Shown one piece after another: positions 39,844 to 60,590 of a stretch of DNA of 64,000 nt. The translations under genes and the position numbers were made by a program. Source of the stretch: an uncultured Opitutia bacterium (lineage in GTDB: Bacteria > Verrucomicrobiota > Verrucomicrobiia > Opitutales > Coraliomargaritaceae); assembly GCA_937136395.1 (NCBI GenBank), contig CAKZOI010000035.1, positions 1 through 64,000 on the forward strand, given 5' to 3'. The notes beneath the pieces were generated by a model. That model searched no databases, was not told the DNA's origin, and saw only the letters and a list, made by a program, of their open reading frames with translations. Positions within the stretch are counted from its first letter, which is position 1; each line of letters starts with the position of its first letter.

Positions 39844-41463
39844 ATGCCATATAACGTTGCCCATTATTTAACTGAGCAGGCGCATCGACAACCTGATGTG
39901 GTCGCTGTGCGGGCGCCTGTTCGGAGATTGGCGAGTGGTGCGATTCAGTATCAAGAGCGAAGCTTTGCGGAGCTTGAGTCTGAGGCTTCAGCGGTGGCTC
40001 GCATGCTGGCGGATCGTGGTATCGTGCGTGGTTCGCGAGTGTTACTGATGGTGAAGCCAGGGCTGGACCTGATTCGTATTGTCTTTGCATTGTTTAAAGT
40101 GGGTGCGGTGCCCATCGTCATTGATCCGGGCATGGGATTGTCGAAATTTTTGAAATGTGTGCGTCACTCCAAGCCAAGTGCCGTGGTAGGCATTCCCGCA
40201 GCGATTCTCGTTTCGCATTTATTTCGGCCTAGTTTTCGTGGTGTTTCTGTAAAGTTGTCGGTGGGGCGTCGCTTCTCGCGGCAATTGCTAGAGTATGTCA
40301 GCAGGGGCGTTTATACTGTAGTGGATTCTGCTATCGATGAATTGGCAGCTATCTTGTTTACATCCGGTTCTACGGGACCCGCCAAAGGTGTCTGTTATGC
40401 GCACGGAATGTTTATGGCACAAGTGCAAGCGATTCGCGCTCAATATGGGATTGAGCCGGGGGAGGTCGATTTACCCATGCTTCCCGTGTTCGCGCTATTT
40501 AATCCTGCTCTAGGCATGTGCACCATCGTTCCGGAAATGAACCCGAGTCGGCCAGCGGAAGTCGATCCAGCGGGTATTGTCCAAGCGATTCAGCAGAATG
40601 AGGTGACAAACAGCTTTGGCTCACCAGCTTTGTGGACCAAGATCGCTCGTCATTGCCAGGCGAACTCCATTACTTTGCCCTCGATTCGACGTATTTTGAT
40701 GGCTGGAGCGCCTGTCCCACCTGCCCTCATGAAGCAGATGCAGTTGATTATACCGAATGGTGAAATACAGACGCCTTATGGCGCAACTGAGGCACTGCCA
40801 GTGAGTTCGATTTCGGCCACTGAAGTCCTCTCGGAAACGGCTGAGCGGACTCAGCGGGGAGAAGGCACGTGTGTGGGTAAGCCTTTGCCGAATGTTTCAG
40901 TGCGGGTGATCGAGCCTGTGGAGGGAGCGATTGTGACGATCGATGAAGTTGTTGATTCCACGACTGGTGCGATTGGTGAGATTATTGTGAAGGGCCCCTC
41001 CGTGACAAGCGGATACGACCGGTTACCAGAGGCAGATGCGCTGTCGAAGTTGCGCGATGGCGAGTCGCATTGGCATCGCATGGGAGACATGGGCTGGCTT
41101 GATGAGCTTGGACGCTTGTGGTTTTGCGGTCGCAAAGCAGAGCGTGTGCTGACTGCGAATGGACCCATGTTTACGGATTGTTGCGAAGCTATTTTTAATC
41201 AGCATCCGCAGGTGTTTCGGTCGGCGCTTATTGATTGTGGCGGTGGTGTGCCCGCTATCGTGATTGAGCCAGAAGCGGAGCATTTTCCTCGGAGTGAATC
41301 AGTGAAGGCCGAATTTGTCCGCAGCTTGAAAGAGCTCGCGGCAGCTTATCCGACTACTGCAGTAATTGAACATGTGTTTTTTGACCGATCATTCCCTGTG
41401 GATGTGCGGCATAATGCAAAAATCCATCGCTTGTCACTTGCGCGTAAATACGGGAGGCAGTAA
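39844..41463 (+). CDS. oleC: OleC-type AMP-dependent beta-lactone synthetase
   Basis: The 539-residue ANL-superfamily enzyme has the AMP-binding loop AAILFTSGSTGPAKGVCYAHG (near 173-193), PYGATEALP, and a C-terminal hinge WLDELGRLWFCGRKAERV. The early segments LLMVKPGLDLIRIVFALFKV and IVIDPGMGLSKFLK are typical of OleC. OleC converts the beta-hydroxy acid made by OleA/OleD into a beta-lactone during head-to-head fatty acid condensation. It is followed 12 bases later by oleD. oleA and oleB are not in the window. Confidence 0.85.
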   Translation: MPYNVAHYLTEQAHRQPDVVAVRAPVRRLASGAIQYQERSFAELESEASAVARMLADRGIVRGSRVLLMVKPGLDLIRIVFALFKVGAVPIVIDPGMGLSKFLKCVRHSKPSAVVGIPAAILVSHLFRPSFRGVSVKLSVGRRFSRQLLEYVSRGVYTVVDSAIDELAAILFTSGSTGPAKGVCYAHGMFMAQVQAIRAQYGIEPGEVDLPMLPVFALFNPALGMCTIVPEMNPSRPAEVDPAGIVQAIQQNEVTNSFGSPALWTKIARHCQANSITLPSIRRILMAGAPVPPALMKQMQLIIPNGEIQTPYGATEALPVSSISATEVLSETAERTQRGEGTCVGKPLPNVSVRVIEPVEGAIVTIDEVVDSTTGAIGEIIVKGPSVTSGYDRLPEADALSKLRDGESHWHRMGDMGWLDELGRLWFCGRKAERVLTANGPMFTDCCEAIFNQHPQVFRSALIDCGGGVPAIVIEPEAEHFPRSESVKAEFVRSLKELAAAYPTTAVIEHVFFDRSFPVDVRHNAKIHRLSLARKYGRQ

Positions 41464-41475
41464 TTATGCCGTAGT

Positions 41476-42474
41476 ATGAAGGTTTTGGTTACAGGTGGCG
41501 GTGGTTTTGTTGGCGGCTATGTCATAGAGCGCTTGCTTGAGCGTGGGCATGAGGTTCGTTCGATCGGTAGGTCTGCCCAGCCTGACCTTGAAGCCAAAGG
41601 TGTTGAGGTGATCTGTGGTGATTTAGCTGATGCCAGTGTCGTCGATGATGCGTGCGCAGGGATGGATGCGGTATTTCACGTGGCTGCTAAAGCTGGAGTG
41701 TGGGGGAGTTGGGATTCGTTTTACCAACCGAACGTCGTTGGCACTCGCAATGTTGTAGCCGCATGTAAGAGGCATGGTGTCGGGCGTTTGGTGTATACCA
41801 GCACGCCAAGTGTGGTGTTCAATCGCCAGGCAATTTCGGGAGAGGGCGAAGAAATGCCATATGGTCGAAATTGGCTCTGTCACTACGCGCATACGAAGGC
41901 AATTGCTGAGAAAGAGCTCCTGAGTGCGAACTCTGATGCTTTGCGCATTGTGGCGCTTCGACCTCATCTAGTGTTTGGCCCCGGTGACCCGCATTTGTTG
42001 CCCCGAGTGATTGAAAGTGCGGTTAGTGGGCGGCTTAAGATTGTTGGGGATGGTAGTTGCCGCGTGGATGTCTCTTATGTTGGCAATGTTGCGGATGCAC
42101 ATTTAAATGCCTTGGATGCCTTAGAGGCTCAGCCCAACTTGGTCTCTGGAAAGGCTTATTTTATATCACAAGGCGAGCCTGTCGAGTTGTGGCCATGGGT
42201 GAATCACATCTTAGAGTCGCTGGGGCACAAGCCTTTGGTAAAACGGATATCGCTACCAGTTGCTTTTGCTGTCGGGGCGATACTGGAATTTGTATGGGGC
42301 GTCTCCCGACGAGCTGGAGACCCTCCGTTGACGCGCTTCGTTGCGGTGGAATTAGCTAAAGACCACTATTTCAATATTGAGGCCGCTCAACGAGAGTTGG
42401 GGTATGAGACGCATGTTGATATGGACGAGGCGTTAACCTTGACCATTGATGACCTACGCAAGAGGGGCTATTAG
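41476..42474 (+). CDS. oleD: OleD-type NAD(P)H-dependent 2-alkyl-3-oxoalkanoate reductase
   Basis: The 332-residue extended SDR protein has VTGGGGFVGGYVIERLLERG at the start, the active-site Ser region YTSTPSVVF, and the YxxxK catalytic pair in HYAHTKAIAEKELL. The stretch HVAAKAGVWGSWDSFYQPNV is characteristic of OleD. It reduces the beta-keto acid from OleA to a beta-hydroxy acid, which OleC then lactonises. The tight oleC-oleD spacing supports the assignment over a generic 3-beta-HSD or sugar epimerase. Confidence 0.85.
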   Translation: MKVLVTGGGGFVGGYVIERLLERGHEVRSIGRSAQPDLEAKGVEVICGDLADASVVDDACAGMDAVFHVAAKAGVWGSWDSFYQPNVVGTRNVVAACKRHGVGRLVYTSTPSVVFNRQAISGEGEEMPYGRNWLCHYAHTKAIAEKELLSANSDALRIVALRPHLVFGPGDPHLLPRVIESAVSGRLKIVGDGSCRVDVSYVGNVADAHLNALDALEAQPNLVSGKAYFISQGEPVELWPWVNHILESLGHKPLVKRISLPVAFAVGAILEFVWGVSRRAGDPPLTRFVAVELAKDHYFNIEAAQRELGYETHVDMDEALTLTIDDLRKRGY

Positions 42475-47127: not shown

Positions 47128-49281
47128 ATGTCCGCTATTAAAACAGCCAGTGCTAACTCGTCGAAACGTAAGTTCCCGTTGGAGCATACGCGCAACATCG
47201 GCATAGCTGCACATATTGACGCGGGCAAAACGACTACGACTGAGCGCATTCTCTTCTACGCAGGTGTCGTCCACAAGATGGGCGAAGTGCACGAAGGAAG
47301 CGCAACAACAGACTGGATGGATCAAGAGCGCGAGCGCGGTATCACAATTACCTCCGCTGCGATCTCTTGCAATTGGACAAATCAGCACGGCCCCTACGCC
47401 GGGATTTGTAACCAAATAAACATTATCGACACCCCCGGGCACGTCGACTTTACCGCCGAAGTGGAGCGTTCGCTCCGAGTCCTTGATGGAGCTGTCGGCG
47501 TTTTTTGTGCCGTCGCGGGCGTGCAGCCACAATCGGAAACGGTGTGGCGCCAAATGACGAAGTATAACGTGCCGCGTATTGCTTTCGTGAATAAGATGGA
47601 TCGAGTCGGTGCGGATTATTTCGCCGCGATTGAGTCCATGCGTGAGCGCCTCAAGGCAAACGCACATCCGATCTACATCCCAATCGGAGCCGAAGACGAG
47701 TTTCGTGGTGTGATCGACCTCGCATCTATGGATGCCTTGGTTTACGACCCTGCCGACGAGTCCGGCATGACTTTTGAAAAGACGGAGATCCCCGCGGATT
47801 ACGTCGATTCCGCAAATGATTACCGCGAGCAGCTCATCGAAGCACTTGCTGACTTTGACGACGACCTCGCCAACAAGTATCTCGAAGGCGAAGCACTTTC
47901 CGCCGACGATATCCGCCAGGCGATTCGCACAGCAACGATCTCACTCGACTTCTGTGGTGTGATTCCTGGCAGTGCTTTCAAGAACAAGGGCGTCCAGTCC
48001 GTTCTTGAGTCCGTGGTCAACTATCTGCCATGCCCGCTCGACCTCCCTCCAATGAAGGGTGAAAACGAGAAGGGTGGCGAAGTTGAAGTGAAGCCAGACG
48101 ATAACGCTAAGTTCGCAGGTCTCGCTTTTAAGCTGATGAACGACGGCTACGTCGGTAAACTGGTCTTTATGCGTGTTTACTCAGGCTCTCTGCAGAAAGG
48201 CACCGCGCTCTACAACCCGCGCACCGGTAAGACCGAACGCATTTCCCGCCTTCTGGTGATGAAGGCCAACTCACGCGAAGATATTGACGTTGCATATTCC
48301 GGCGATATCTGCGCCATCGTCGGTGGTCGTGACATCGTAACCGGTGATACGCTCTGCACCAAGGGCTACGACGTGCGCCTTGAGCCACCCACATTCCCTG
48401 AGCCGGTCATTTCCATGTCGATCGAGCCGAAGACTTCCGCCGACCAGGAGAAAATGGCAACCGGCCTCCAGCGCCTTTCCGAAGAGGATCCGACCTTTGT
48501 GGTCAGCTCCGATGAGGAAACCGGCCAGACTTTGATCTCCGGCATGGGCGAGCTGCACCTCGAAATCATTAAGGACCGTCTCTTCCGTGAATTTAAGGTC
48601 GGCGCCGAAGCTGGTCGTCCGCAGATCGCATACCGTGAAACCATCACTGCGAACGCTGAAGGGGAGGGCAAATTTGTCCGCCAAACCGGTGGTAGTGGTC
48701 AATACGGTCATGCTCGCATCAAAATCGAGCCGCTAGAACGTGGTGCTGGTATTGAAATCGTCGACAAGACGGTTGGCGGCGTGATTCCAAAAGAATTTAT
48801 CAAGCCAACACTCGATGGTATCCGCGAAGCGGCCAATAATGGCACCGTCGCAGGCTTCCCAGTCGTTGATTTCAAGGTCGTGCTTTTCGATGGTTCCTTC
48901 CATGACGTCGATTCCAATGAAACCTCTTTCAAAATGGCTGGTATCTTTGCCTTCCGCGATGCGATGGCGAAAGCGTCTGCAATCCTTCTCGAGCCAGTTA
49001 TGGATGTCGAAGTGGAGACACCTGAAGACTATCAAGGTGACATCATGGGCGATTTGAATCGCCGCCGTGGTCAGATTCAGAATGTTTCTGCAAAAACCGC
49101 TTTCGTTTCCGTCTGTGCTTCTGTGCCGCTCGTCGAAATGTTCGGCTACTCGACCATTGTTCGCTCTCTCAGTAAGGGCCGCGCCTCCTTCAGTATGGAG
49201 CCAGCCAGCTTCGAGGAAGTGCCACCCAATATCCTTAACACGATTTTAGAAACCTCCGGCCGTGTCCCGGTCCGTAATTAA
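47128..49281 (+). CDS. fusA: elongation factor G (canonical, str cluster)
   Basis: From the ATG at 47128 it has 717 residues and starts MSAIKTASANSSKRKFPLEH, then [21 protein letters not shown] motifs are DTPGHVDF and NKMDRVGAD; the ribosome-facing domains IV-V include RQTGGSGQYGHARI and [10 protein letters not shown]. This is the housekeeping translocase by location; a FusA2-type copy lies at 30.6 kb. An upstream TTG frame start is unlikely. tuf does not follow, unlike the E. coli str operon. Confidence 0.97.
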   Translation: MSAIKTASANSSKRKFPLEHTRNIGIAAHIDAGKTTTTERILFYAGVVHKMGEVHEGSATTDWMDQERERGITITSAAISCNWTNQHGPYAGICNQINIIDTPGHVDFTAEVERSLRVLDGAVGVFCAVAGVQPQSETVWRQMTKYNVPRIAFVNKMDRVGADYFAAIESMRERLKANAHPIYIPIGAEDEFRGVIDLASMDALVYDPADESGMTFEKTEIPADYVDSANDYREQLIEALADFDDDLANKYLEGEALSADDIRQAIRTATISLDFCGVIPGSAFKNKGVQSVLESVVNYLPCPLDLPPMKGENEKGGEVEVKPDDNAKFAGLAFKLMNDGYVGKLVFMRVYSGSLQKGTALYNPRTGKTERISRLLVMKANSREDIDVAYSGDICAIVGGRDIVTGDTLCTKGYDVRLEPPTFPEPVISMSIEPKTSADQEKMATGLQRLSEEDPTFVVSSDEETGQTLISGMGELHLEIIKDRLFREFKVGAEAGRPQIAYRETITANAEGEGKFVRQTGGSGQYGHARIKIEPLERGAGIEIVDKTVGGVIPKEFIKPTLDGIREAANNGTVAGFPVVDFKVVLFDGSFHDVDSNETSFKMAGIFAFRDAMAKASAILLEPVMDVEVETPEDYQGDIMGDLNRRRGQIQNVSAKTAFVSVCASVPLVEMFGYSTIVRSLSKGRASFSMEPASFEEVPPNILNTILETSGRVPVRN

Positions 49282-49283
49282 TC

Positions 49284-49305
49284 AGTCTTAATCCTAATCC
49301 TTTTC
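49284..49305. repeat. short TTAATCC repeat fragment after fusA
   Basis: CAGTCTTAATCCTAATCC resembles half of the TTAATC palindromic repeat at 28557-28636. It opens the 100-base fusA-rpsJ spacer, which otherwise holds pyrimidine-rich CTAACTTC units. Confidence 0.4.
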
Positions 49306-49381
49306 AGGTCACTTTGGCCTAACTTCTAACTCCTACATTCTAACTTCTTTTCACAACAACATCTCACACAAAACAAATATT

Positions 49382-49690
49382 ATGAGTGCACCACGTATCC
49401 GTATCCGCCTAAAAGGCTTTGATTATCGCGTTATCGACCAGTCTGCTGCAGACATCGTCGAAACAGCTAAGCGCTCCGGCGCACGCGTATCTGGCCCAGT
49501 GCCACTTCCAACTAAGGTTGAGAAGCTGACAGTGAACCGTTCCGTTCACGTTAACAAAAAGTCCATGGACCAATTCGAAGTCCGCACGCACAAGCGTTTG
49601 ATCGACATCGTCGAGCCAACTGCTGCGACTGTTGACGAGCTCAAGAAGCTCAATCTGCCAGCGGGTGTGGACATTTCCATCAACGTTTAA
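49382..49690 (+). CDS. rpsJ: 30S ribosomal protein S10
   Basis: The 102-residue S10 reads [20 protein letters not shown] and ends near [14 protein letters not shown]. It functions in the 30S head and, with NusB, in antitermination. It is preceded by a 100-base spacer and followed by an unusually long 151-base gap with two stem-loops before rplC, so regulation of the S10 part may start after this gene. Confidence 0.98.
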
Positions 49691-49710
49691 AAATAATTGT
49701 CATCTTTTGG

Positions 49711-49750
49711 TTGACGAGCGTCGGAAAAGCCTCTTTTTTCCGTCGCTCGC
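49711..49750 (+). terminator. stem-loop after rpsJ (attenuator candidate)
   Basis: GAGCGTCGGAAAA pairs with TTTTTCCGTCGCTC (one T-T mismatch), loop gcctctt. The T-run is inside the stem, with none after it, so this may be a transcriptional pause/processing hairpin rather than a full terminator. Confidence 0.5.
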
Positions 49751-49794
49751 TTCCCAATTGAGGCGATAAATCACATTTTAATTAACTCTCTAAC

Positions 49795-49830
49795 GCAGGT
49801 CTAGTAAACGGAGCACCCTGTTCCACCTGC
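49795..49830 (+). promoter_or_regulatory. structured leader upstream of rplC
   Basis: The outer stem GCAGGT/ACCTGC encloses a 5'-side bulge ctagtaaac and an inner stem GGAGCA-ccc-TGTTCC (one G-U). It ends 11 bases before the rplC start. Its position suggests autoregulation by a ribosomal protein such as L3 or L4, by analogy with S10 leaders. Confidence 0.5.
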
Positions 49831-49841
49831 CAATTAGTATT

Positions 49842-50486
49842 ATGAACGTAGCCCTATTAGGTAAAAAGATAGGAATGACGCAGGTATTTGACGAAAACAA
49901 TCGTCTGATCCCTGTCACAGTCATTGAAGCAGGACCTTGCCCTGTTACTCAGGTCAAGTCCGAGGAGACAGACGGTTACAACGCTGTCCAGATCGGATAT
50001 CGTCCGCAAAAAGAGCATCGCCTTTCCAAGGCTGCACTCGGCCACTTCAAGAAGGCCGGTGTTGAGCCAATGTCTGAACTTCAAGAGTTCCGCACAAATG
50101 GTGATGCTGAATTGAGCGTTGGTGATGTGCTCACCGTGGAGCGTTTTGAGGCCGGTCAAAAAATTGATGTCATCGGCACCTCTAAGGGACGTGGTTTCCA
50201 AGGTGTCGTGAAGCGTTACGGTTTTGCAGGGGGGCCTGCATCTCACGGTTCGATGTTCCACCGCCGCGGTGGTTCGTATGGTATGTGCCAATGGCCAGGC
50301 CACGTGATCAAGGGCAAGAAAATGCCAGGTCACATGGGTGATGTGCAGCGCACCGTCCAGAACCTAGAAGTTGTTAAGGTTATCGCAGACAAGAATCTTA
50401 TCCTTATTAAGGGTAGTATTCCTGGTTCTCGTGGTGGCTTCGTCACAGTCCGCACTGCGGTTAAAACCAAAAGATCACAGGCATAG
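49842..50486 (+). CDS. rplC: 50S ribosomal protein L3
   Basis: The 214-residue L3 has a short start (LLGKKIGMTQVFDENNRLIP) and the central DVIGTSKGRGFQGVVKRYGF that reaches the peptidyl transferase centre. The GGSYGMCQWPGHVIKGKKMP loop contains the usual methylated Gln region. It is the first gene after the structured leader and lacks a Shine-Dalgarno. Confidence 0.98.
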   Translation: MNVALLGKKIGMTQVFDENNRLIPVTVIEAGPCPVTQVKSEETDGYNAVQIGYRPQKEHRLSKAALGHFKKAGVEPMSELQEFRTNGDAELSVGDVLTVERFEAGQKIDVIGTSKGRGFQGVVKRYGFAGGPASHGSMFHRRGGSYGMCQWPGHVIKGKKMPGHMGDVQRTVQNLEVVKVIADKNLILIKGSIPGSRGGFVTVRTAVKTKRSQA

Positions 50487-50514
50487 CCTCTGATGACGAA
50501 AGGACATACCTACA

Positions 50515-51153
50515 ATGAAACTTAAAGTATTTTCAACCGACGGAAGCTCCAGCAAAGAACAAGAATTTGCTCAGTTTCCGACATTCGAAGGTGATAAGGG
50601 CGTAGCCGCTCTTCGCCAAGTCGTTCTCGCTCACCAAGCGAATGCCCGCCAAGGTAATGCGTCTACTAAAACACGCGCTGAAGTTGCGGGTTCTGGTAAG
50701 AAGCTCTTCCGCCAAAAAGGTAGCGGCACAGCTCGTCAAGGTGACCGTCGCACACCGCACCAACGTCATGGTGGTGTGGCACACGGCCCGAAGCCACGCG
50801 ACTTCTCACAAAAGATCAATCGCAAGATGAAGGCACTCGCTTTTCAGCGTGCACTTTTTGAGCGCGCTAATGAGGGCGGCATCTCTGTAATCGAAGCAGT
50901 CGAAGTGAAAGAGCCAAAGACTAAGCTCTTTAGCAATGTGCTAAACGGCGTGCTTCCAACTCGCGGCAAAGTCTTGATCGTCGATGACGCATTTGAAAAC
51001 AACGCTGCACTCGCTGCTCGCAATATCGAGGGTGTTTCCCTCTCTGAAGCGGGCAACCTCAGCACACTCGACGTCGTCCGCTACCGCCACATCCTTGTGA
51101 GCGCGAAGGGCATCGAAACTCTTATCGCTCGTGCAAATGGAGGTGAAAAGTAA
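50515..51153 (+). CDS. rplD: 50S ribosomal protein L4
   Basis: The 212-residue L4 has the tunnel-lining loop KLFRQKGSGTARQGDRRTPH followed by QRHGGVAHGP. The N-terminal FSTDGSSSKEQEFAQFPTF is rather divergent. In other bacteria L4 represses the S10 operon via its leader, which makes the hairpins before rplC interesting. It overlaps rplW by one base. Confidence 0.97.
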   Translation: MKLKVFSTDGSSSKEQEFAQFPTFEGDKGVAALRQVVLAHQANARQGNASTKTRAEVAGSGKKLFRQKGSGTARQGDRRTPHQRHGGVAHGPKPRDFSQKINRKMKALAFQRALFERANEGGISVIEAVEVKEPKTKLFSNVLNGVLPTRGKVLIVDDAFENNAALAARNIEGVSLSEAGNLSTLDVVRYRHILVSAKGIETLIARANGGEK

Positions 51154-51443
51154 TGATTATCGCCGATACAATTCTTAAAGAATATCGCGTCACTGAGAAG
51201 GCTGCTCTTCTCTCCGCGAATCACAACCAATATACCTTCGAAGTGGCACCGTCCGCAAATCGTATCGAAGTCGCTCGCGCTGTCGCGAAGGTCTTCAATG
51301 TAGAAGTCGTAAAGGTAAACATCCTTAACAAAAAGCCTAAGGTGAAGACCGATCGCTCTCGCAAGGGACGTCCCGGCACTAAAGGCGGCCACAAGAAGGC
51401 CATCGTTACTCTTAAAGAGGGCGACAAGATTGAACTCGTCTAA
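51153..51443 (+). CDS. rplW: 50S ribosomal protein L23
   Basis: The 96-residue L23 reads [20 protein letters not shown] and [20 protein letters not shown]. It lies at the exit of the peptide tunnel, where it docks trigger factor and SRP. A good Shine-Dalgarno GGAGGTG lies at 51139-51145, and the start overlaps the rplD stop (TAATG), so coupling is likely. Confidence 0.97.
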
Positions 51444-51463
51444 GACGCAGGAGAAATAACATC

Positions 51464-52309
51464 ATGCCACTCGTAGATTCCAGACCTTTGACTCCCGGCC
51501 AACGTTTCCTCACACGAAACAAGCAGGACGTCTCCAAGAAGAAGCCAGAGCGCCGTCTTACCACTTACAAGCACAACAAGAAGGGCCGTAATTGCTACGG
51601 TCGTATCACTTCTCGTCGTCGTGGTGGTGGTCACAAACGCGCTTACCGCATTATCGATTTTCGTCGTGATAAGATCGACATCCCTGCAAACGTGCAGGCG
51701 ATTGAATACGATCCAAATCGTTCCGCTAATCTCGCTCTCCTTGCGTATGCAGACGGCGAAAAACGCTACATTCTTGCACCTCGCGGTGTGACTGCAGGCG
51801 ATACACTCGTCAGTACAAACACACGCGCTGAATTCAATGTCGGAGACAGCCTTCCTTTGGCAATCATCCCGCCAGCCACTAAGATTCATGCAATTGAGCT
51901 TCACCCAGGTCGCGGTGCGCAAATCGCACGTTCTGCAGGTCAGTCGGCTCAACTTGTTTCAGTTGATGGTGAACGTGCCACTGTGAAGTTGCCTTCTGGT
52001 GAAATCCGCTTCCTTAACTCTCGTTGCCGCGCAACGATTGGAGAAGTTGGCAATCACGAGCATCAAAACCAAAGCCTTGGTAAAGCGGGTCGTAACCGCT
52101 GGCTTGGTCGTCGCCCACGTGTTCGTGGTGTTGCGATGAACCCTGTCGATCACCCTATGGGTGGTGGTGAAGGCCGCACTTCTGGTGGTGGTCACCCACA
52201 ATCTCCTTGGGGTCAACTCTCGAAGGGCTTCCCGACTCGCAAGAAGTCTAATCCAACCAATTCGCAAATCGTTGTTCGTCGCAACGGTCGTCAATTGAAG
52301 AAAAAATAA
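51464..52309 (+). CDS. rplB: 50S ribosomal protein L2
   Basis: The 281-residue L2 has RGRGTGCYGR-like [31 protein letters not shown], and the conserved His in the [15 protein letters not shown] loop ([20 protein letters not shown]), needed for peptidyl transferase assembly. Shine-Dalgarno AGGAGA is at 51449-51454. 16 bases separate it from rpsS. Confidence 0.98.
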
Positions 52310-52325
52310 ATCAATTCTTTAAGCT

Positions 52326-52595
52326 ATGTCCCGTTCCGTAAAAAAAGGTTTCTTTGTCGATCCACATCTCTCCAAAAAGGTAGTGGTCGCTCAAGCCAAC
52401 AACGACCGCAAGCCGATCCAAACATGGTCGCGCCGTTCGACAATTACTCCCGACTTCGTCGGCCTCAACTTCAACGTTCATAACGGCCGCAGCTTTTTGC
52501 CCGTTTATGTGACTGAGAACATGGTTGGCCACAAGCTTGGAGAGTTCGCTCCAACACGCACCTTCAAGGGTCACCCTGCAGGTAAGGCTAAATAA
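52326..52595 (+). CDS. rpsS: 30S ribosomal protein S19
   Basis: The 89-residue S19 starts [19 protein letters not shown] and contains [19 protein letters not shown] and [20 protein letters not shown]. It sits in the 30S head near the A site with S13. It is followed, unusually, by a gene for an exported protein rather than directly by rplV. Confidence 0.98.
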
Positions 52596-52619
52596 TCCGC
52601 TCAACCGCGATTAACTATT

Positions 52620-52994
52620 ATGCAACATTCGTCCATATCACGTTTTACTAAGCTAGCTAGCTTACTCCTTTGCGGAGTGCTGGTTGCCGGTAGCGTTGTG
52701 TGCGCGAGTGTTCCAGCATTTGTCAAAGAGTCACTCTACACACCATATGAGGCGAAAGTCGCATCCGTGGAATCGTCTCTCTCAGCCGACGTCGTTCTTA
52801 TCGACGGCGGCTTAGAGCAGGGGATACGCCTCGGAATGGTTTGCACTGTGAGTCGTGGATTTAAATCCGTTGGCGAATTGATCATCATCGAATCTCGAAG
52901 CGACCGCGCAGCAGGACTTATCCTCGAGTTGGTCGACGACTCTATCATTCAAGCGGGAGATACTGCCCGCGTAAAAACAATTCAAAACAGCTGA
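52620..52994 (+). CDS. small exported protein inserted in the S10 operon, unknown
   Basis: The 124-residue product has a clear signal peptide (basic SRFTK, hydrophobic LASLLLCGVLVAGSV, cleavage near VCA-SV). The mature part is a small beta-domain: VASVESSLSADVVLIDGGLE, QGIRLGMVCTVSRGFKSVGE, then a repeat-like LIIIESRSDRAAGLILELV and QAGDTARVKTI. This resembles the C-terminal (FlgT-C-like) barrel found in some cell-envelope proteins. It lies 24 bases after rpsS and 5 bases before rplV on the same strand, so it is co-transcribed. No ribosomal protein matches it. Confidence 0.75.
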   Translation: MQHSSISRFTKLASLLLCGVLVAGSVVCASVPAFVKESLYTPYEAKVASVESSLSADVVLIDGGLEQGIRLGMVCTVSRGFKSVGELIIIESRSDRAAGLILELVDDSIIQAGDTARVKTIQNS

Positions 52995-52999
52995 ATCTC

Positions 53000-53335
53000 A
53001 TGCAGGTCCAAGCCTATACAAAATACGCCCGTATGTCGCCCCGCAAGGTGCGTGATATCACCCGTGCCATCCAAGGTCAAAATGCCGCTGAGGCAGTCGA
53101 AATCTTGCGCTTTATTCCGCGCAAGTCGGCACGTCTCGTAAGCAAGACCCTCCAGTCGGCCATTGCGAATGCGGAAAACAATAACAACTTATCTTCGGAT
53201 GCGCTCAAGATCGAGTCCGCTACTGTTGAGCAAGGTCCAGCGTTTAAGCGCTTTCGTCCTGCGGCTCGTGGTTCGGCTCACCCTTACAAGAAGCAGACTA
53301 GCCACATCCGTATCATCCTCACTGACGAGGCTTAA
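53000..53335 (+). CDS. rplV: 50S ribosomal protein L22
   Basis: The 111-residue L22 has YARMSPRKVRDITRAIQGQN, ENNNNLSSDALKIESATVEQ, and the tunnel-loop region KRFRPAARGSAHPYKKQTSH. It lies 5 bases after the exported-protein gene and 23 bases before rpsC. Confidence 0.97.
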   Translation: MQVQAYTKYARMSPRKVRDITRAIQGQNAAEAVEILRFIPRKSARLVSKTLQSAIANAENNNNLSSDALKIESATVEQGPAFKRFRPAARGSAHPYKKQTSHIRIILTDEA

Positions 53336-53358
53336 GATCTAACCGACATTCTTTTATT

Positions 53359-53991
53359 ATGGGACAGAAAGTTCATCCAATCGGCTTCCGCCTTGCAGTA
53401 ACTCGTGACTGGGATTCACGCTGGTATGCTAACAAAAAGCAATACCCTGAATACATTAAGGAGGACCACACCATCCGCACCTTTCTCACAGAAAAGCTTC
53501 GCTATGCATCCGTGCCTCGTATCTTCATCGAGCGTGCCTCTGGTCGTATCCGTGTTAAGATCTTTACTGCACGTCCAGGTGTTGTCATCGGTCGTAAAGG
53601 TGCTGAGCTCGATAAGCTCAAGGAGACACTGAACAAGAAGGTTGGCAAAGAGATCATGCTCGACATCCAGGAAGTGAAACGCCCGGACCTGTCTGCACAG
53701 TTGGTCGCAGAGAATGTTGCGCTTCAACTTGAGCGTCGTATTGCATTTCGTCGCGCCATGAAGCGTGCGGTTCAAACAACTATGGCTATGGGTGCTGACG
53801 GTATTCGTATTCAATGTGGTGGTCGCCTCGGTGGTGCTGATATCGCTCGCACAGAGCAGCAGCGTCAAGGACGTGTGCCTTTACAAACACTTCGCGCAAA
53901 CATCAACTACGGGTTCAGTGAAGCATCCACAGTTTACGGCATCATCGGTGTCAAATGCTGGATCTGCCTTCCTGACGAAGAGTCTGCATAA
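53359..53991 (+). CDS. rpsC: 30S ribosomal protein S3
   Basis: The 210-residue S3 starts MGQKVHPIGFRLAVTRDWDS, has the KH domain ARPGVVIGRKGAELDKLKE, and the C-terminal LGGADIARTEQQRQGRVPLQ followed by GFSEASTVYGIIGVKCW. It lines the mRNA entry channel. The helicase-associated residues RTE are kept. Confidence 0.98.
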   Translation: MGQKVHPIGFRLAVTRDWDSRWYANKKQYPEYIKEDHTIRTFLTEKLRYASVPRIFIERASGRIRVKIFTARPGVVIGRKGAELDKLKETLNKKVGKEIMLDIQEVKRPDLSAQLVAENVALQLERRIAFRRAMKRAVQTTMAMGADGIRIQCGGRLGGADIARTEQQRQGRVPLQTLRANINYGFSEASTVYGIIGVKCWICLPDEESA

Positions 53992-54036
53992 GCGTATTCA
54001 CGTAACTTAATTTTTAACTCTTAAACTGAGCGAACA

Positions 54037-54450
54037 ATGGCATTACTCCCATCACGCACTAAATACCGCAAGGTTCACACCGGTCGCATTTACGGCACCG
54101 CACAAACTTGTAACGCACTCGCTTTCGGCGAATTCGGTATCCAATCCCTCACACGTGGTCGCATGACTTCTCAACAGATCGAAGCTGCTCGTGTGGCGAT
54201 GACTCGTAGCCTGAAACGTAAAGGTAAAGTCTGGATCCGTGTTTTCCCTCACAAGCCTGTGACCAAGAAGCCAGCTGAAACTCGTATGGGTAAAGGTAAG
54301 GGTTCTGTTGAAAAATGGGTCGCTGTGATTCGCCCAGGCACAATGCTTTTCGAAATTGCTGGTTGCTCTGCAACAGCTGCCCGTGAAGCACTTCGCCTCG
54401 CTGACACTAAGTTGCCGTTTCACTGCCGCTTCGTGACTCGCGAAGACTAA
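54037..54450 (+). CDS. rplP: 50S ribosomal protein L16
   Basis: The 137-residue L16 starts [20 protein letters not shown], a variant of the usual (L/S)PK.TK.RK.HRGR, then [40 protein letters not shown], and KLPFHCRFV at the end. It contacts the acceptor stem of A-site tRNA. Confidence 0.97.
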
Positions 54451-54474
54451 ACCACTATTTTAAAGGAATTTACT

Positions 54475-54678
54475 ATGAGCACAAAAGATATCCGCGAAAT
54501 GTCCGAAGTTGAAATCGAAAAGAAACTGCGCGACACCCGTGACGCTCACGTCAATCTTCGTATGCGCAAGCAGACTGGTCAGGTCGAAAAGCCACACGAA
54601 TTCACTAACTTGCGTCGCGAAATCGCACGCCTTGAAACAATTCTCAAAGAAAAGAAGCTGGCTTCGGCCAATGCTTAA
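54475..54678 (+). CDS. rpmC: 50S ribosomal protein L29
   Basis: The 67-residue two-helix protein reads DIREMSEVEIEKKLRDTRDA and ARLETILKEKKLA. It lies next to L23 at the tunnel exit. It has a good leader AAAGGAATTTACT before the ATG. Confidence 0.95.
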   Translation: MSTKDIREMSEVEIEKKLRDTRDAHVNLRMRKQTGQVEKPHEFTNLRREIARLETILKEKKLASANA

Positions 54679-54698
54679 ACGTTTAAGCCGCTACGAAT

Positions 54699-54977
54699 AT
54701 GGAAGCTACTCGCAACTCTCGCAAGTCACTCACAGGAACGGTAACAAGCCGCTCCGGAGATAAGACAATCAAAGTCACTTACTCTTACAAAGTCCCGCAC
54801 CCTCTCTATAAGAAGGAAATTAAGCGTAAGACTGTTGTGCACGCACACGACGAAGCCAACGAGTGTGGTCTCGGCGACAAAGTCGAGATTATGGAAACTC
54901 GCCCGCTTAGTAAACTAAAGCGCTGGCGTGTGACACGTCTACTCGAAGTTGCTCCTAAGATTGGCGACGAAGCGTAG
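54699..54977 (+). CDS. rpsQ: 30S ribosomal protein S17
   Basis: The 92-residue OB-fold S17 has SRKSLTGTVTSRSGDKTIKV, HPLYKKEIKRKTVVHAHDEA and VEIMETRPLSKLKRWRVTRL. It binds 16S rRNA early in assembly. 51 bases follow before rplN. Confidence 0.97.
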   Translation: MEATRNSRKSLTGTVTSRSGDKTIKVTYSYKVPHPLYKKEIKRKTVVHAHDEANECGLGDKVEIMETRPLSKLKRWRVTRLLEVAPKIGDEA

Positions 54978-55028
54978 TTATACGGCAGCAGCCTATTATT
55001 ATTTTAACCGATTAACGGAGATTTAGCT

Positions 55029-55391
55029 ATGATACAGATGAACAGCCGCGTATTTGTCGCGGATAACACAGGAGCCAAGGAAGCGGAGATGATCCGTCGT
55101 ATTGGACAAAACAAGCGCACAGCAGCGGTCGGTGATGTTGTGATCTGCAACGTCAAAGTTGCTTCAACAGACGCGTCTGTCAAAAAGGGTGAAGTGGTTC
55201 GTGGTGTGGTTGTTCGCACTAAAGCACCAGTTCGTCGTGGAGATGGTAGCTATGTCCGCTTCGATAACAACGCTATCGTTATCATCAACACCGATGGTAA
55301 TCCTAAAGGCACTCGTATCTTTGGCCCCGTAGCTCGTGAGCTGCGTGCTAAATTTATGAAGATCATTTCACTTGCACCGGAGGTTCTCTAA
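55029..55391 (+). CDS. rplN: 50S ribosomal protein L14
   Basis: The 120-residue L14 starts [20 protein letters not shown] and contains [20 protein letters not shown] and [14 protein letters not shown]. It is the binding site of ribosome silencing factor RsfS. Shine-Dalgarno GGAG lies 8 bases upstream of the ATG. Only 2 bases separate it from rplX. Confidence 0.98.
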
Positions 55392-55393
55392 TC

Positions 55394-55636
55394 ATGTCCA
55401 AAGCAATTAAACGCGAAGAAGAAGTTGTCGTCATCTCAGGTGCACACAAAGGCAAGCGTGGCAAAGTATTGTCCGTTCAAGCTGGTGAGCGCGTCCTCGT
55501 TGAAGGCGTCAACCTAATCACTAAATATGAGCGTAAGACTCAAGAGAACCCAGAGGGTGGTTCCGTTGAGCGCGAAGCGCCCATTCATTATTCCAACGTC
55601 ATGTTGGCTGCTAAATACGACGCCAAGCAAAAATAA
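55394..55636 (+). CDS. rplX: 50S ribosomal protein L24
   Basis: The 80-residue KOW-motif protein reads VVVISGAHKGKRGKVLSVQA, NLITKYERKTQENPEGGSVE and APIHYSNVML. It is an assembly initiator of the large subunit. Slightly short compared with 100-105 residues in proteobacteria, but complete. Confidence 0.96.
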   Translation: MSKAIKREEEVVVISGAHKGKRGKVLSVQAGERVLVEGVNLITKYERKTQENPEGGSVEREAPIHYSNVMLAAKYDAKQK

Positions 55637-55732
55637 ACGAGCTTGCCTGTCGGTCTAAAAGCCACATTTTCACGCACTTTTTCTAAAATCACATCAAAAT
55701 GTGCCGGGTCAGAAATCCGGCCGATACAAACG

Positions 55733-56314
55733 ATGGCTACATTACTACAAAAACACTACGCTGATACAGTTGTTCCCGCACTTAAAGAAAAGTTCGGTTA
55801 CACAAATGTACACTGTATTCCAGCGATCAAAAAGATCGTAATCAATTCCGGCTTCAATGCGACTGCGGATAAGAACCACATTGCATACGTGCATGAGGAA
55901 ATTGGTAAGATCTCTGGTCAACGCCCTGTCACCACAAAGGCAAAGCTCAGTATCTCGAACTTTAAGTTGCGTGAAGAACAACCAATTGGTTGCAAGGTAA
56001 CGCTTCGTGGAGAGGCGATGTATGACTTCCTCGTGCGTCTTATCAGCATCGCGCTTCCTGCGATTCGTGACTTCCGTGGCGTGCCAACACGCTTTGATGG
56101 TAAAGGTAATTACACATTAGGTGTGAGTGATCACACGATCTTTCCTGAAATCAGTGCAGAAGGCACCAACGCCCAAATGGGTATGGATATCTGCATCAAC
56201 ACCAGTGCGAAAACAGATGAAGAAGGCCGCGAATTACTCGCTCTCTTCGGTGTTCCTTTCCGTAAAACAAGTGCCGAAGTCGAAGCAGCTGAAGCTGCTG
56301 CCGCTACTGCATAA
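55733..56314 (+). CDS. rplE: 50S ribosomal protein L5
   Basis: From the ATG at 55733 it has 193 residues, beginning [20 protein letters not shown]. Motifs are [54 protein letters not shown] and FPEI. It binds 5S rRNA and contacts the P-site tRNA. The frame is open upstream to 55643, but that stretch does not look like L5. The tail [11 protein letters not shown] is extra. A 96-base gap before the start contains the small hairpin GCCGG-gtcagaaat-CCGGC. Confidence 0.96.
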
Positions 56315-56334
56315 GCTTTCAACTAGACTTTCTT

Positions 56335-56640
56335 ATGGCTAAAAAATCCGCTATCCAACGCAACCTAAAGCGCGTTCGTCTCATTGAGAAATACGCAGCA
56401 AAGCGCGCAGAACTTAAAGCAATCCTCGCTAACCCAGAAACTTCAGACGAAGATTTCTACAAGGCACAAGCTAAGCTCTGCAAACTTCCTAAGAACAGCT
56501 CGCCGATTCGCGCACGTAACCGTTGCTCCGTCACCGGTCGTCCTCGCGCTTTCATCCGCAAGTTCGGTCTCTCTCGTATCACATTCCGCGAACTTGCCAC
56601 TCAAGGTAAGATTCCAGGTGTGACAAAATCCTCTTGGTAA
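56335..56640 (+). CDS. rpsN: 30S ribosomal protein S14 (zinc-free type)
   Basis: The 101-residue S14 has [20 protein letters not shown] and [20 protein letters not shown], ending [20 protein letters not shown]. Long form without the CxxC...CxxC zinc site. Confidence 0.97.
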
Positions 56641-56687
56641 GCACTTCTGCTTCTCCAAACCCACTGAAAACCCACTAGTAAAATACT

Positions 56688-57086
56688 ATGGCAGTTCACG
56701 ACACAATCGGTGATTTCCTCACCATCATTCGCAATGCGAGTGCTGCACGTAAAGACGTGTGCACAGCGCCATTTTCAAAAATGCGCCTCGCGATCGCTTC
56801 CATCCTCAAGTCTGAAGGTTACATTAGTGACTACAGTGAAGAGCAAAACGAAAAGGGCTTTAAAGTCATTTCGATTAAGATGAAGTATGTTGGCGGTAAG
56901 CCAGCGATCACAGGTATTCAGCGTCACAGCACGCCTGGTTGCCGTCTTTACTACGGTTGCAAAGAAATCCCACGCGTGCTTAACGGCTTGGGTGTTGCAA
57001 TCCTCACTACTTCCAAGGGCGTTATCCGTGCCCGCGACGCTCGTGAAAAGGGTGTTGGCGGCGAACTCGTCTGCAAGGTCTGGTAA
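56688..57086 (+). CDS. rpsH: 30S ribosomal protein S8
   Basis: The 132-residue S8 starts HDTIGDFLTIIRNASAARKD and ends VIRARDAREKGVGGELVCKV. A central platform protein and, in E. coli, the repressor of the spc operon by binding the rplE region mRNA; here the 96-base rplX-rplE spacer would be the analogous place to look. Confidence 0.97.
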   Translation: MAVHDTIGDFLTIIRNASAARKDVCTAPFSKMRLAIASILKSEGYISDYSEEQNEKGFKVISIKMKYVGGKPAITGIQRHSTPGCRLYYGCKEIPRVLNGLGVAILTTSKGVIRARDAREKGVGGELVCKVW

Positions 57087-57104
57087 TTCAATAGGACATA
57101 TACT

Positions 57105-57641
57105 ATGAGCAGAATTGGTAAACTTCCCATTCCCGTCCTTGATAAGGCAAATGTATCGATTAACGGTCAGACCGTTTCCGTCGATGGCCCCAAGGGTAAA
57201 CTAGAAAAGACTTTCGACAACTCGACTAAGATCGAATTGACCGACGGAGAGATTCGCGTGTCTCCAGCTGATAGCAGCCGTCACGCCCGTGCAATGTATG
57301 GCACTGTCCGCTCCATAATCAATAACATGGTTACTGGTGTTGTTGAAGGTTTCTCTAAGAAACTTGAGATCAAGGGTGTTGGTTTTCGTGCCTCACTACA
57401 GGGCAACCTACTTGATCTTTCTCTCGGTTACTCACACCCAGTTGTGCTGACTGTTCCAGAAGGCATCACTGTGACTGTCACTGAGAATACAAAAATCACT
57501 GTTGAAGGTGCCGACAAGCAGGTTGTGGGCGAACTCGCCGCAACTATTTATTCTTACTTCCCAGCTGAGCCCTACAAGGGCAAGGGTGTTCACATCGTCG
57601 GCCAATACGTCCGCCGTAAGGAGGGCAAGAAGTCCGCTTAA
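57105..57641 (+). CDS. rplF: 50S ribosomal protein L6
   Basis: The 178-residue two-domain L6 starts MSRIGKLPIPVLDKANVSIN and has GKLEKTFDN, KKLEIKGVGFRASLQGNLLD, GYSHPVVLTVPEGI and the end EPYKGKGVHIVGQYVRRKEG. It binds near the sarcin-ricin loop. Confidence 0.98.
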   Translation: MSRIGKLPIPVLDKANVSINGQTVSVDGPKGKLEKTFDNSTKIELTDGEIRVSPADSSRHARAMYGTVRSIINNMVTGVVEGFSKKLEIKGVGFRASLQGNLLDLSLGYSHPVVLTVPEGITVTVTENTKITVEGADKQVVGELAATIYSYFPAEPYKGKGVHIVGQYVRRKEGKKSA

Positions 57642-57664
57642 TTTTCAAGCAGAGGTTATAACAT

Positions 57665-58012
57665 ATGAAACTCGCAAAGAAAAACATACTTTTACAGAAG
57701 CGTCGCTGGCGTATCCGCAAAAAAGTCAAGGGCACTGCAGAGCGTCCTCGTCTTACAGTTCACTTCTCCAACAAAAATATCTACGCACAATGCATCGACG
57801 ATATCAAAGGTCATACTATGGTCTACGTATCTTCGCTTGGTGGCGACGATAAGGCAAACAACGACGGTGCAGTTGCACTCGGTAAAGCAATTTCCGAGAA
57901 AGCTAAGGCAGCTGGTGTTGAGAGCGTGGTCTTCGACCGTGCCGGCCGTCGTTACCACGGTTGCGTGAAATCATTCGCTGAAGCAGCTCGCGAGGGCGGA
58001 CTCAAGTTCTAA
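57665..58012 (+). CDS. rplR: 50S ribosomal protein L18
   Basis: The 115-residue L18 has [40 protein letters not shown] and the 3' part [20 protein letters not shown]. It binds 5S rRNA with L5. 11 bases separate it from rpsE. Confidence 0.97.
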
Positions 58013-58023
58013 GGAATACCCAT

Positions 58024-58542
58024 ATGAGCAGACAAAAAAGATCATTCTCTCAAAAAGACGAGCCAGAAGAGGCACCAGAATTCTCCGAAAAGGTAGTTCA
58101 CATCAACCGTTGTGCTAAAGTTGTAAAAGGCGGTCGCCGTTTCAGCTTCGCTGCACTCGTTGTCGTCGGTAATCAAAAAGGTCAAGTCGGTGTTGGCTAC
58201 GGTAAAGCAAAGGAAGTTCCTGAGTGTATTCGTAAAGGCACTGAGCAAGCTAAGAAGAACCTCGTTACGATCAATCTTCGTGGCGATACAATCCCTCACC
58301 ATGTTCTCGGCGAAGCCGATGGTGGTAAGGTGCTTCTCCGCCCAGCTTCAGATGGAACAGGTGTCATCGCCGGTGGTGGTGTCCGTGCTGTTCTTGAATC
58401 AGTCGGGGTGAAAAACATTCTCTCCAAGTCACTCGGTTCGAATAATCACCTCGCTATGGTGAATGCGACAATGGCTGCGCTTCAGCAGCTTCGCTCGAAC
58501 GAAGAAATCAAGAGCCTCCGCTTCAGCGAAGCAGGCGCGTAA
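58024..58542 (+). CDS. rpsE: 30S ribosomal protein S5
   Basis: The 172-residue S5 has a charged start ([20 protein letters not shown]), the double-stranded RNA-binding-like [20 protein letters not shown] and [20 protein letters not shown], then [20 protein letters not shown]. It takes part in decoding fidelity. rpmD (L30), which normally follows rpsE, is missing; rplO starts 12 bases later. Confidence 0.97.
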
Positions 58543-58554
58543 GGAGTCCATACA

Positions 58555-59028
58555 ATGAATCTCGATAATATTCCAACAATTAAAGGTGCAACACACCCAA
58601 CCAAACGTCTAGGACGTGGTGAAGGTAGTGGACACGGTAAGACCTCCGGTAAGGGACATAAGGGCCAGAAAGCTCGTTCTGGTGGTGGTATCCGTATTGG
58701 TTTCGAAGGTGGTCAAATGCCACTTTATCGTAAGCTTCCACGCCGTGGTTTCAATAACTTCAACTTCAAGGTGTCTTACCAATTGGTAAACGTCGGTCAG
58801 CTCGAAAAGCTGGAAGGCGATACAGTTGACCGTGAGTCGCTAGTGAAGGCTGGTCTCGTCCGTGACAACAAGCAGGGCGTAAAGCTTCTTGGTGACGGTG
58901 AACTGACCAAAGCATTCACAGTAAACGTCTGCAAAGTTTCCGCATCTGCTAAAAGCAAGATCGAAGCTGCAGGTGGCAAGATCGTTGAAGCTGCAGCGCC
59001 TGCTGCAGACGAGAAGGAAGACGCTTAA
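58555..59028 (+). CDS. rplO: 50S ribosomal protein L15
   Basis: The 157-residue L15 has the glycine-rich basic stretch RLGRGEGSGHGKTSGKGHKG followed by RSGGGIRIGFEGGQMPLYRK and LPRRGFNNF. The C-terminus ends in an acidic Ala/Glu tail (VEAAAPAADEKEDA). It precedes secY by 47 bases. Confidence 0.97.
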   Translation: MNLDNIPTIKGATHPTKRLGRGEGSGHGKTSGKGHKGQKARSGGGIRIGFEGGQMPLYRKLPRRGFNNFNFKVSYQLVNVGQLEKLEGDTVDRESLVKAGLVRDNKQGVKLLGDGELTKAFTVNVCKVSASAKSKIEAAGGKIVEAAAPAADEKEDA

Positions 59029-59075: not shown

Positions 59076-60590
59076 ATGCTATCCGCTTTTACCAACTCTC
59101 TGAAGATTCCTGAGCTTCGTCAGAAGATTTTCTTCACACTGGCACTGTTGTTCATCGCTCGTGTCGGTGCGAACATTCCTTTACCTGGAATGAACACTGC
59201 CCCGATCCAGGATTTCATGGCAGATCAAGCTGGTGCAGGTGGTGGTCTGGTTGGCATGTTTAACATGTTTACTGGTGGTGCGCTTCTAAATGGTGCCGTA
59301 TTTGCATTGGGTATCATGCCGTATATTAGCGCATCGATTATTATGCAACTGGTTGGTGCTGTGTTTCCAGCGATTGCACGTTTACAGCAAGAGGGTGACG
59401 TCGGTCGTCAAAAGATTAGCCAATACACCCGTTATCTCACGCTCGGTATTTGCTTAGTTCAGGGTATGCTGTTGCTCACTGCTTTGGCGAAAAACCCAGG
59501 TAGTTTGATCGGACAGGGCTTCAGTGTCGCAGATTATGGTCCAGTGGTGATTATGCCGCAAATGGCCTTCTTGATTACTGGCACCTTGTTCCTGACTGCT
59601 GGCACCATGATCATGGTTTGGCTCGGTGAGCAAATCACAGAGAAGGGCATCGGCAACGGTATCTCACTGTTGATTACAGTCAGTATTATTTCTGGACTTC
59701 CCGGTGCAGTCGCTTCTGCCTACCAAATGTTTGTCGCTCCTGTTGGATCAGAGGGTGCTTCACTCGGCGTGCCGGAAGGTGTATTGATGCTGGCATTGTT
59801 GTTTGCAGTGACTGCTGGTCTGGTTGCCATCACGCAAGCGCAACGCAAGATACCCGTTCAGTATGCTAAGCGTGTTGTCGGACGTAAGGTATATGGCGGT
59901 CAGAGCTCATTCCTTCCGCTCAAGGTAAACTATGCTGGTGTGATGCCGGTTATCTTTGGTAGCGCGATCCTGATGTTCCCCGCGCAGATTCTGAGCTGGT
60001 TGGGGAGTGCGACTGGTATGCGTTTCTTCTCTGACTTTGCCGACACCATTGCGCAGGGGCAACTCGCCTACTACTTGATCTTTGGGTTACTCATCCTGGT
60101 CTTCAGTTACTTCTGGGTCTCCATGATGTTCAAGCCCATCCAAATAGCGGATGACCTGAAGAAGAACGGTGGATACATTCCTGGTGTTCGCCCTGGTGAG
60201 CCCACTGCGAAGTTCCTCGATCACATCATGACCCGCCTGACACTGTTTGGCGCGATCTCATTGACTGTGATTGCAATTTTCCCTGACTTCTTGCTGTTTA
60301 CTTACAACGTTCCATTCAATGTCGCTATCTTCTTTGGTGGCACGGGTATGTTGATTACTGTTGGTGTGCTACTTGACACCATGCGCCAAATCGAAACCTA
60401 TCTTCTTCAGCGTCACTACGATGGCTTCCTGAAGAAAGGTAAGATTCGTGGCCGTTCCGCCGCTCGTAATAAGCAGCTTGTCGATTCCGCTGGTTTGCAA
60501 GACTTCTGGACCGCTTGGCGTCCGCTCTTGTTCATCGCGATCGCTCTTTTCTTTCTGGGTATTATTTCTTGGTTCTTGAACCTCGCATAA
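59076..60590 (+). CDS. secY: preprotein translocase subunit SecY (with extra C-terminal helix)
   Basis: The 504-residue channel protein starts LKIPELRQKIFFTLALLFIA and shows the plug/TM2 region LGIMPYISASIIMQLVGAVF, EQITEKGIGNGISLLI, and the ribosome-binding loops QRKIPVQYAKRVVGRKVYGG and GGYIPGVRPGEPT. The usual SecY ends soon after the ETYLLQRHYDGFLKKGKIRG region (about residue 455). Here 40 more residues follow with a hydrophobic segment (PLLFIAIALFFLGIISWFL), predicting an eleventh helix. adk, which often follows secY, is absent; map is next. Confidence 0.96.
   Translation: MLSAFTNSLKIPELRQKIFFTLALLFIARVGANIPLPGMNTAPIQDFMADQAGAGGGLVGMFNMFTGGALLNGAVFALGIMPYISASIIMQLVGAVFPAIARLQQEGDVGRQKISQYTRYLTLGICLVQGMLLLTALAKNPGSLIGQGFSVADYGPVVIMPQMAFLITGTLFLTAGTMIMVWLGEQITEKGIGNGISLLITVSIISGLPGAVASAYQMFVAPVGSEGASLGVPEGVLMLALLFAVTAGLVAITQAQRKIPVQYAKRVVGRKVYGGQSSFLPLKVNYAGVMPVIFGSAILMFPAQILSWLGSATGMRFFSDFADTIAQGQLAYYLIFGLLILVFSYFWVSMMFKPIQIADDLKKNGGYIPGVRPGEPTAKFLDHIMTRLTLFGAISLTVIAIFPDFLLFTYNVPFNVAIFFGGTGMLITVGVLLDTMRQIETYLLQRHYDGFLKKGKIRGRSAARNKQLVDSAGLQDFWTAWRPLLFIAIALFFLGIISWFLNLA

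Follow-up and report, generated by a model that had tools for sequence, protein, structure and literature searches.

Introduction

Few bacterial gene strings are as strongly conserved as the S10 cluster, and rpsS and rplV are adjacent in most bacteria. An envelope protein encoded within a run of ribosomal genes has a counterpart in SecY, which lies in the spc operon, is presumably made in step with ribosomes and is, to our knowledge, universal and essential. Two other described proteins may be compared with the one studied here: MreC (PF04085; PDB 2j5u, 7eft), which consists of an anchor, a coiled coil and two barrels, and FlgT, whose C-terminal domain (FlgT_C, PF16538) is a small barrel. In the part of it drawn on here, an account of S10 cluster history in Gammaproteobacteria and Bacilli places insertions mainly between operons (PMC8046335).

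We analyzed an open reading frame, given the working name X, that lies between rpsS and rplV in a 64,000-nucleotide stretch of an uncultured Opitutia bacterium (the window). Like SecY, its product would be an envelope protein within a ribosomal gene run; unlike SecY, it is, as far as the sampling goes, restricted to Verrucomicrobiota, and it is sited inside S10. A non-ribosomal gene fixed within this operon across much of a phylum is unusual, and the literature searched held no description of a gene between rpsS and rplV in Verrucomicrobiota.

Results

An intact gene within the S10 operon

X is an uninterrupted reading frame of 124 amino acids with an ATG start and a TGA stop, separated from rpsS by 24 nt and from rplV by 5 nt, in exact agreement with the coordinates of a preliminary description made from the window alone (Table 1). 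The genome of the window carries a single copy. By position X qualifies as an S10 operon gene, being on the same strand, inside the operon and conserved in place, and the gene order of the surrounding run is borne out by tblastn in relatives up to rplX. The preliminary description had not known this arrangement from other phyla; the corresponding gap in E. coli K-12 is 14 bases long and empty, which agrees, the comparison comprising E. coli and sampling within the phylum itself.

Table 1. Positions of gene X, its parts and its neighbors in the window
Feature	Position	Strand	Basis
S10-spc ribosomal gene run rpsJ to rplO, X inside	49382..59028	+	ORF reading
rpsS (S19), 5' neighbor of X	52326..52595	+	ORF reading, tblastn order in relatives
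Gene X, predicted exported 124-aa protein with one six-stranded barrel	52620..52994	+	intact ORF, syntenic homologues, dN/dS 0.13-0.30
Probable Sec signal peptide, residues 1-29 (MQHSSISRFTKLASLLLCGVLVAGSVVCA)	52620..52706	+	KD maximum 2.66; cleavage site by inspection
Predicted barrel domain, about residues 43-120	52746..52979	+	AF2 model, alignments, fold matches
Junction: last six X codons, stop, 5-nt spacer, rplV start	52974..53002	+	almost invariant across family, including most synonymous positions
rplV (L22), 3' neighbor of X	53000..53335	+	ORF reading, tblastn order in relatives
secY, after the S10-spc run	59076-60590		ORF reading

Conservation of the slot across Verrucomicrobiota

A first survey matched X in 42 of 57 genomes. 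At the loci examined X always lay on the same strand directly 5' of rplV, with rpsS preceding it wherever the contig extended that far; for two weak homologues the ORF in the slot was assigned by position and by alignment to other homologues. Within the family, all 34 genomes with a detectable rplV carry X, which is kept in genomes as small as 1.3-1.4 Mb; the three genomes without a match also have no detectable rplV, and we therefore attribute them to assembly gaps. The named records in a separate pattern scan with a narrower alignment, Puniceicoccaceae MAGs and Coraliomargarita sp. SDUM461004, assign the family to Opitutales. Across the order, 191 of 373 genomes matched the family profile, and at 20 additional loci from a wide range of families X always lay between rpsS and rplV.

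The class-wide search gave matches in 313 of 384 genomes, of which weak matches may partly fall outside the operon. Ten strong matches outside the family were read over their full length, and each lay between rpsS and rplV. Phylum-wide, 229 of 388 genomes matched. Among 19 S10-region loci at this level, 12 have an X homologue between the two ribosomal genes, and at the remaining seven X is directly 5' of rplV and rpsS is absent, the operon having been split just before X. Eight more genomes, missed by the profile, have a divergent homologue ahead of rplV. Homologues thus occupy this slot across dozens of families, which supports the claim that X is embedded in the S10 operon, and a check of gene order in relatives, proposed at the outset, finds that this place is kept in family and order and over much of the phylum. 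In three loci of one genus (L130, L151 and L152) the split operon reads tatC-X-rplV, so that the rplV block stands behind Tat export genes: L130 has tatA-tatC-X-rplV, and an upstream ORF reads as TatC in two other genomes of the genus.

In many of the sampled genomes that lack X, rpsS and rplV are 1-31 nt apart, and a search of longer empty gaps (63-179 nt) for relics of X found none. One locus (L135) has a 552-nt gap holding a 127-codon ORF with no barrel or X match, possibly another insert or a decayed one. The absences look like losses because X is present on several deep branches, and the existence of several lineages without it indicates that X is dispensable in some backgrounds and not universally required.

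Vertical inheritance and purifying selection

Inheritance of X is largely vertical, and its gene tree tracks the ribosomal proteins. Over 83 loci, pairwise distances of the barrel domain correlate with those of RpsS plus RplV (Mantel r 0.815, reached in 0 of 2000 permutations); the two trees have 27 splits in common, where shuffled tips give at most 2, and each of them recovers the order as a supported clade. X is also under purifying selection, with dN/dS between relatives of 0.13-0.30 and, in most pairs compared, a mature part less changed than the signal part.

These results bear directly on whether X is a recent chance insertion without function, as its absence from some lineages might suggest. 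Phylum-wide synteny, a vertical tree and dN/dS well below 1 rule out a chance ORF or recent insertion, a reading to which we give practically no credence. The preliminary description had reserved it for a gene both absent from all relatives and not expressed, and conservation in family, order and phylum decisively contradicts such an absence.

A probable signal peptide and a predicted small barrel

The N-terminus of X contains a strong hydrophobic stretch, LLLCGVLVAGSVVC, following R8/K11 and preceding a cleavage-like site (VCA/S). Among 83 X homologues, 80 carry a hydrophobic stretch of this kind at the N-terminus, compared with 0 of 83 RplV sequences, and X is likely exported by Sec, as judged from these sequence features. 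The remainder is modeled mainly as beta strands (residues 44-118), and an AF2 model, usable when built from a 29-row family alignment (single-sequence prediction gave pLDDT 40), shows six strands forming a small barrel with pLDDT of about 89-97 over residues 41-120. The structure prediction called for by the preliminary description is thus confident for the mature domain and, with the hydrophobicity of the N-terminus, upholds its signal peptide and small beta-domain. G64, G72 and I101 are invariant in alignments of diverse members. X is not a ribosomal protein: it has no family match, it has a signal sequence, and its mature net charge is -4.

The long homologues from other families of the class measure 238-292 aa and consist of an N-terminal hydrophobic segment, a helical region that is probably a coiled coil, and the same C-terminal domain as X. 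In further orders and classes of Verrucomicrobiota, too, the slot is filled by longer forms of this kind. One locus elsewhere (L133, genome G397, positions 2378-4017) has two tandem paralogues of 258 and 271 aa, each with anchor, helical region and barrel, flanked by dnaX-like and radC-like genes; no MreC was detected in that genome.

Comparison with known barrels

Sequence searches with the X protein found no match in Pfam at E up to 10 or in NCBIfam, and a PDB sequence search returned noise. For FlgT_C in particular, PF16538 matched neither X at E up to 10 nor anything in the window genome; 7 of 10 long homologues do match it, below threshold (best E 6e-5; the one homologue with a listed score has 14.3 bits against a gathering threshold of 27). 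Foldseek aligned the X model to FlgT of Vibrio (PDB 3w1e) with E 0.016 and TMq 0.47, for a fold that is common. X differs from FlgT in having no flagellar context and in its place within the S10 operon.

The likeness to MreC lies in the long forms, which are similarly exported or anchored, with a probable coiled coil followed by a barrel. Weak NCBIfam MreC matches occur in 3 of 10 long homologues (best E 0.0016), and MreC structures are among the Foldseek matches of the X model. The long homologues, however, have only one barrel-length domain where MreC has two, and the window protein comprises a signal and one barrel. X is not the MreC of this genome, because the sole PF04085 match there is another gene, beside an MreB-type ORF, within a separate mreBCD. 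All 30 sampled genomes that lack X have MreC, as do 30 of the 34 that carry X; this pattern of occurrence does not suggest that X is part of the Rod complex.

In Foldseek and VIA comparisons the model is structurally closest to N-terminal barrels of the HAS type in the alpha and beta subunits of F1/V1-ATPases (Z of about 10 in VIA, with an rmsd of about 2 Å across about 70 residues), at 8-22% identity to X and in domains of cytoplasmic, vacuolar or mitochondrial ATPases. Judging from the model, this likeness would reflect a common fold only. More generally, the predicted barrel is of the type seen in MreC, FlgT and F/V-ATPase subunits, a very common fold that would indicate no single function. 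Another candidate, the "PVC signature protein", is described as small (about 53 to more than 80 aa) and as occurring also in Chlamydiae and Planctomycetes (PMC3444138), a description that sets it apart and makes identity with X unlikely.

The junction with rplV

Across the family the end of X and the start of rplV show hardly any variation (CTTCAAAACAGC TGA ATCTC ATG, with close variants), in contrast to the region 5' of X, which varies. Over the final six codons of X, synonymous mismatch is 0-0.25; the 86 codons before them average 0.44. Most family members have 5 nt between X and rplV; outside the family the distance can be as short as 1 nt or as long as about 100 nt. Since these codons and the spacer are almost frozen, they probably double as the translation start region of rplV, so that the rplV initiation region would overlap the end of X and the two genes would be translationally linked.

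No internal promoter or terminator above chance was found in the rpsS-X-rplV region. Together with the shared strand, the spacers of 24 and 5 nt and the frozen rplV junction, this strongly suggests that X is co-transcribed with the ribosomal protein genes. The codon adaptation index of X is 0.588, average for the window, as against 0.69-0.86 in its ribosomal protein neighbors, which suggests that its output may be modest and its yield below that of the ribosomal proteins. Of the earlier proposal that co-transcription would tie an envelope protein to growth rate, co-transcription is probable and the tie to growth rate putative, and codon usage makes a very high output unlikely.

Discussion

We propose, with somewhat better than even confidence, that X belongs to an ancient Verrucomicrobiota protein family of the S10 operon, of which it is the short form found in Opitutales, and that its product is exported and serves as a scaffold or adaptor whose synthesis keeps pace with growth. 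X would be transcribed together with the ribosomal protein genes and exported by Sec, and ribosomes finishing X would help to start rplV, whose start region overlies its end. Mature X would reside in the periplasm, free in the window family and anchored or equipped with a coiled coil in the long forms, where we infer that it acts as a scaffold or adaptor by means of its MreC/FlgT-like barrel. Siting in S10 would keep this envelope part proportional to ribosome production, as in the spc operon with SecY. Given that the place of X is fixed across much of Verrucomicrobiota, cells appear to tie an envelope protein to ribosome production.

Other functions would account for parts of these data. X could be a periplasmic protein associated with Sec or Tat and thus a partner in protein export, which would explain its co-location with ribosomal protein genes as for secY. 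That X is probably exported or anchored, that secY lies downstream in the same run, and that one lineage has tatA-tatC-X-rplV, with a TatC-like ORF upstream in two genomes of the same genus, all speak for such a role; we nevertheless regard it as unlikely, as the Tat neighborhood was seen in that one genus only and the searches turned up nothing similar, in sequence or structure, to a known translocon component. The MreC-like anchor, probable coiled coil and barrel of the long forms, the weak matches of 3 of 10 of them to an MreC profile and the presence of MreC among the fold matches would suit a one-barrel MreC relative serving as a Rod-complex or peptidoglycan scaffold. Against this stand the separate mreBCD of the window genome, the occurrence of MreC in genomes without X (30 of 30) as well as with it (30 of 34), and the single barrel, here with no coiled coil, and we consider a Rod scaffold slightly more doubtful still.

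The junction raises the question of whether the exported product matters at all. If X were mainly a translational device, its frame would be kept to couple or set rplV translation, in keeping with last codons, a stop and a 5-nt spacer that hardly vary, most synonymous sites included, and with a 5-nt spacing in most family members. However, the barrel core is conserved as protein throughout the phylum while the junction spacing varies outside the family, 80 of 83 homologues retain a hydrophobic stretch at the N-terminus, and the mature part has a low dN; the odds of this reading are, in our estimation, as poor as those of an export partner. X might also tether ribosomal protein mRNA and its polysomes to the membrane: the signal sequence, emerging mid-S10, would dock the message under translation at the translocon, and the last codons of X would start rplV. 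We hold this to be very improbable; if true, it would amount to a phylum-specific way of both placing ribosomal protein synthesis and balancing it against envelope growth.

A scaffold or adaptor made in step with ribosomes would offer a natural case for how envelope growth is matched to ribosome synthesis. The gene marks Verrucomicrobiota genomes and reveals a protein family that has neither a name nor a model. Targeted mutagenesis and a saturated transposon library exist for V. spinosum (PMC12283558), in which X may be testable.

In the ribosomal run of the window, rplO directly follows rpsE with no rpmD (L30) between them (58024-59028), which differs from E. coli, and at the start of the run rpsJ directly follows fusA with no tuf between them (49281-49382). 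Further upstream (39844-42474), an AMP-ligase-like gene is followed on the same strand by an NAD-dependent epimerase/dehydrogenase-like gene, an arrangement that may resemble the OleC-OleD pair of hydrocarbon (olefin) synthesis.
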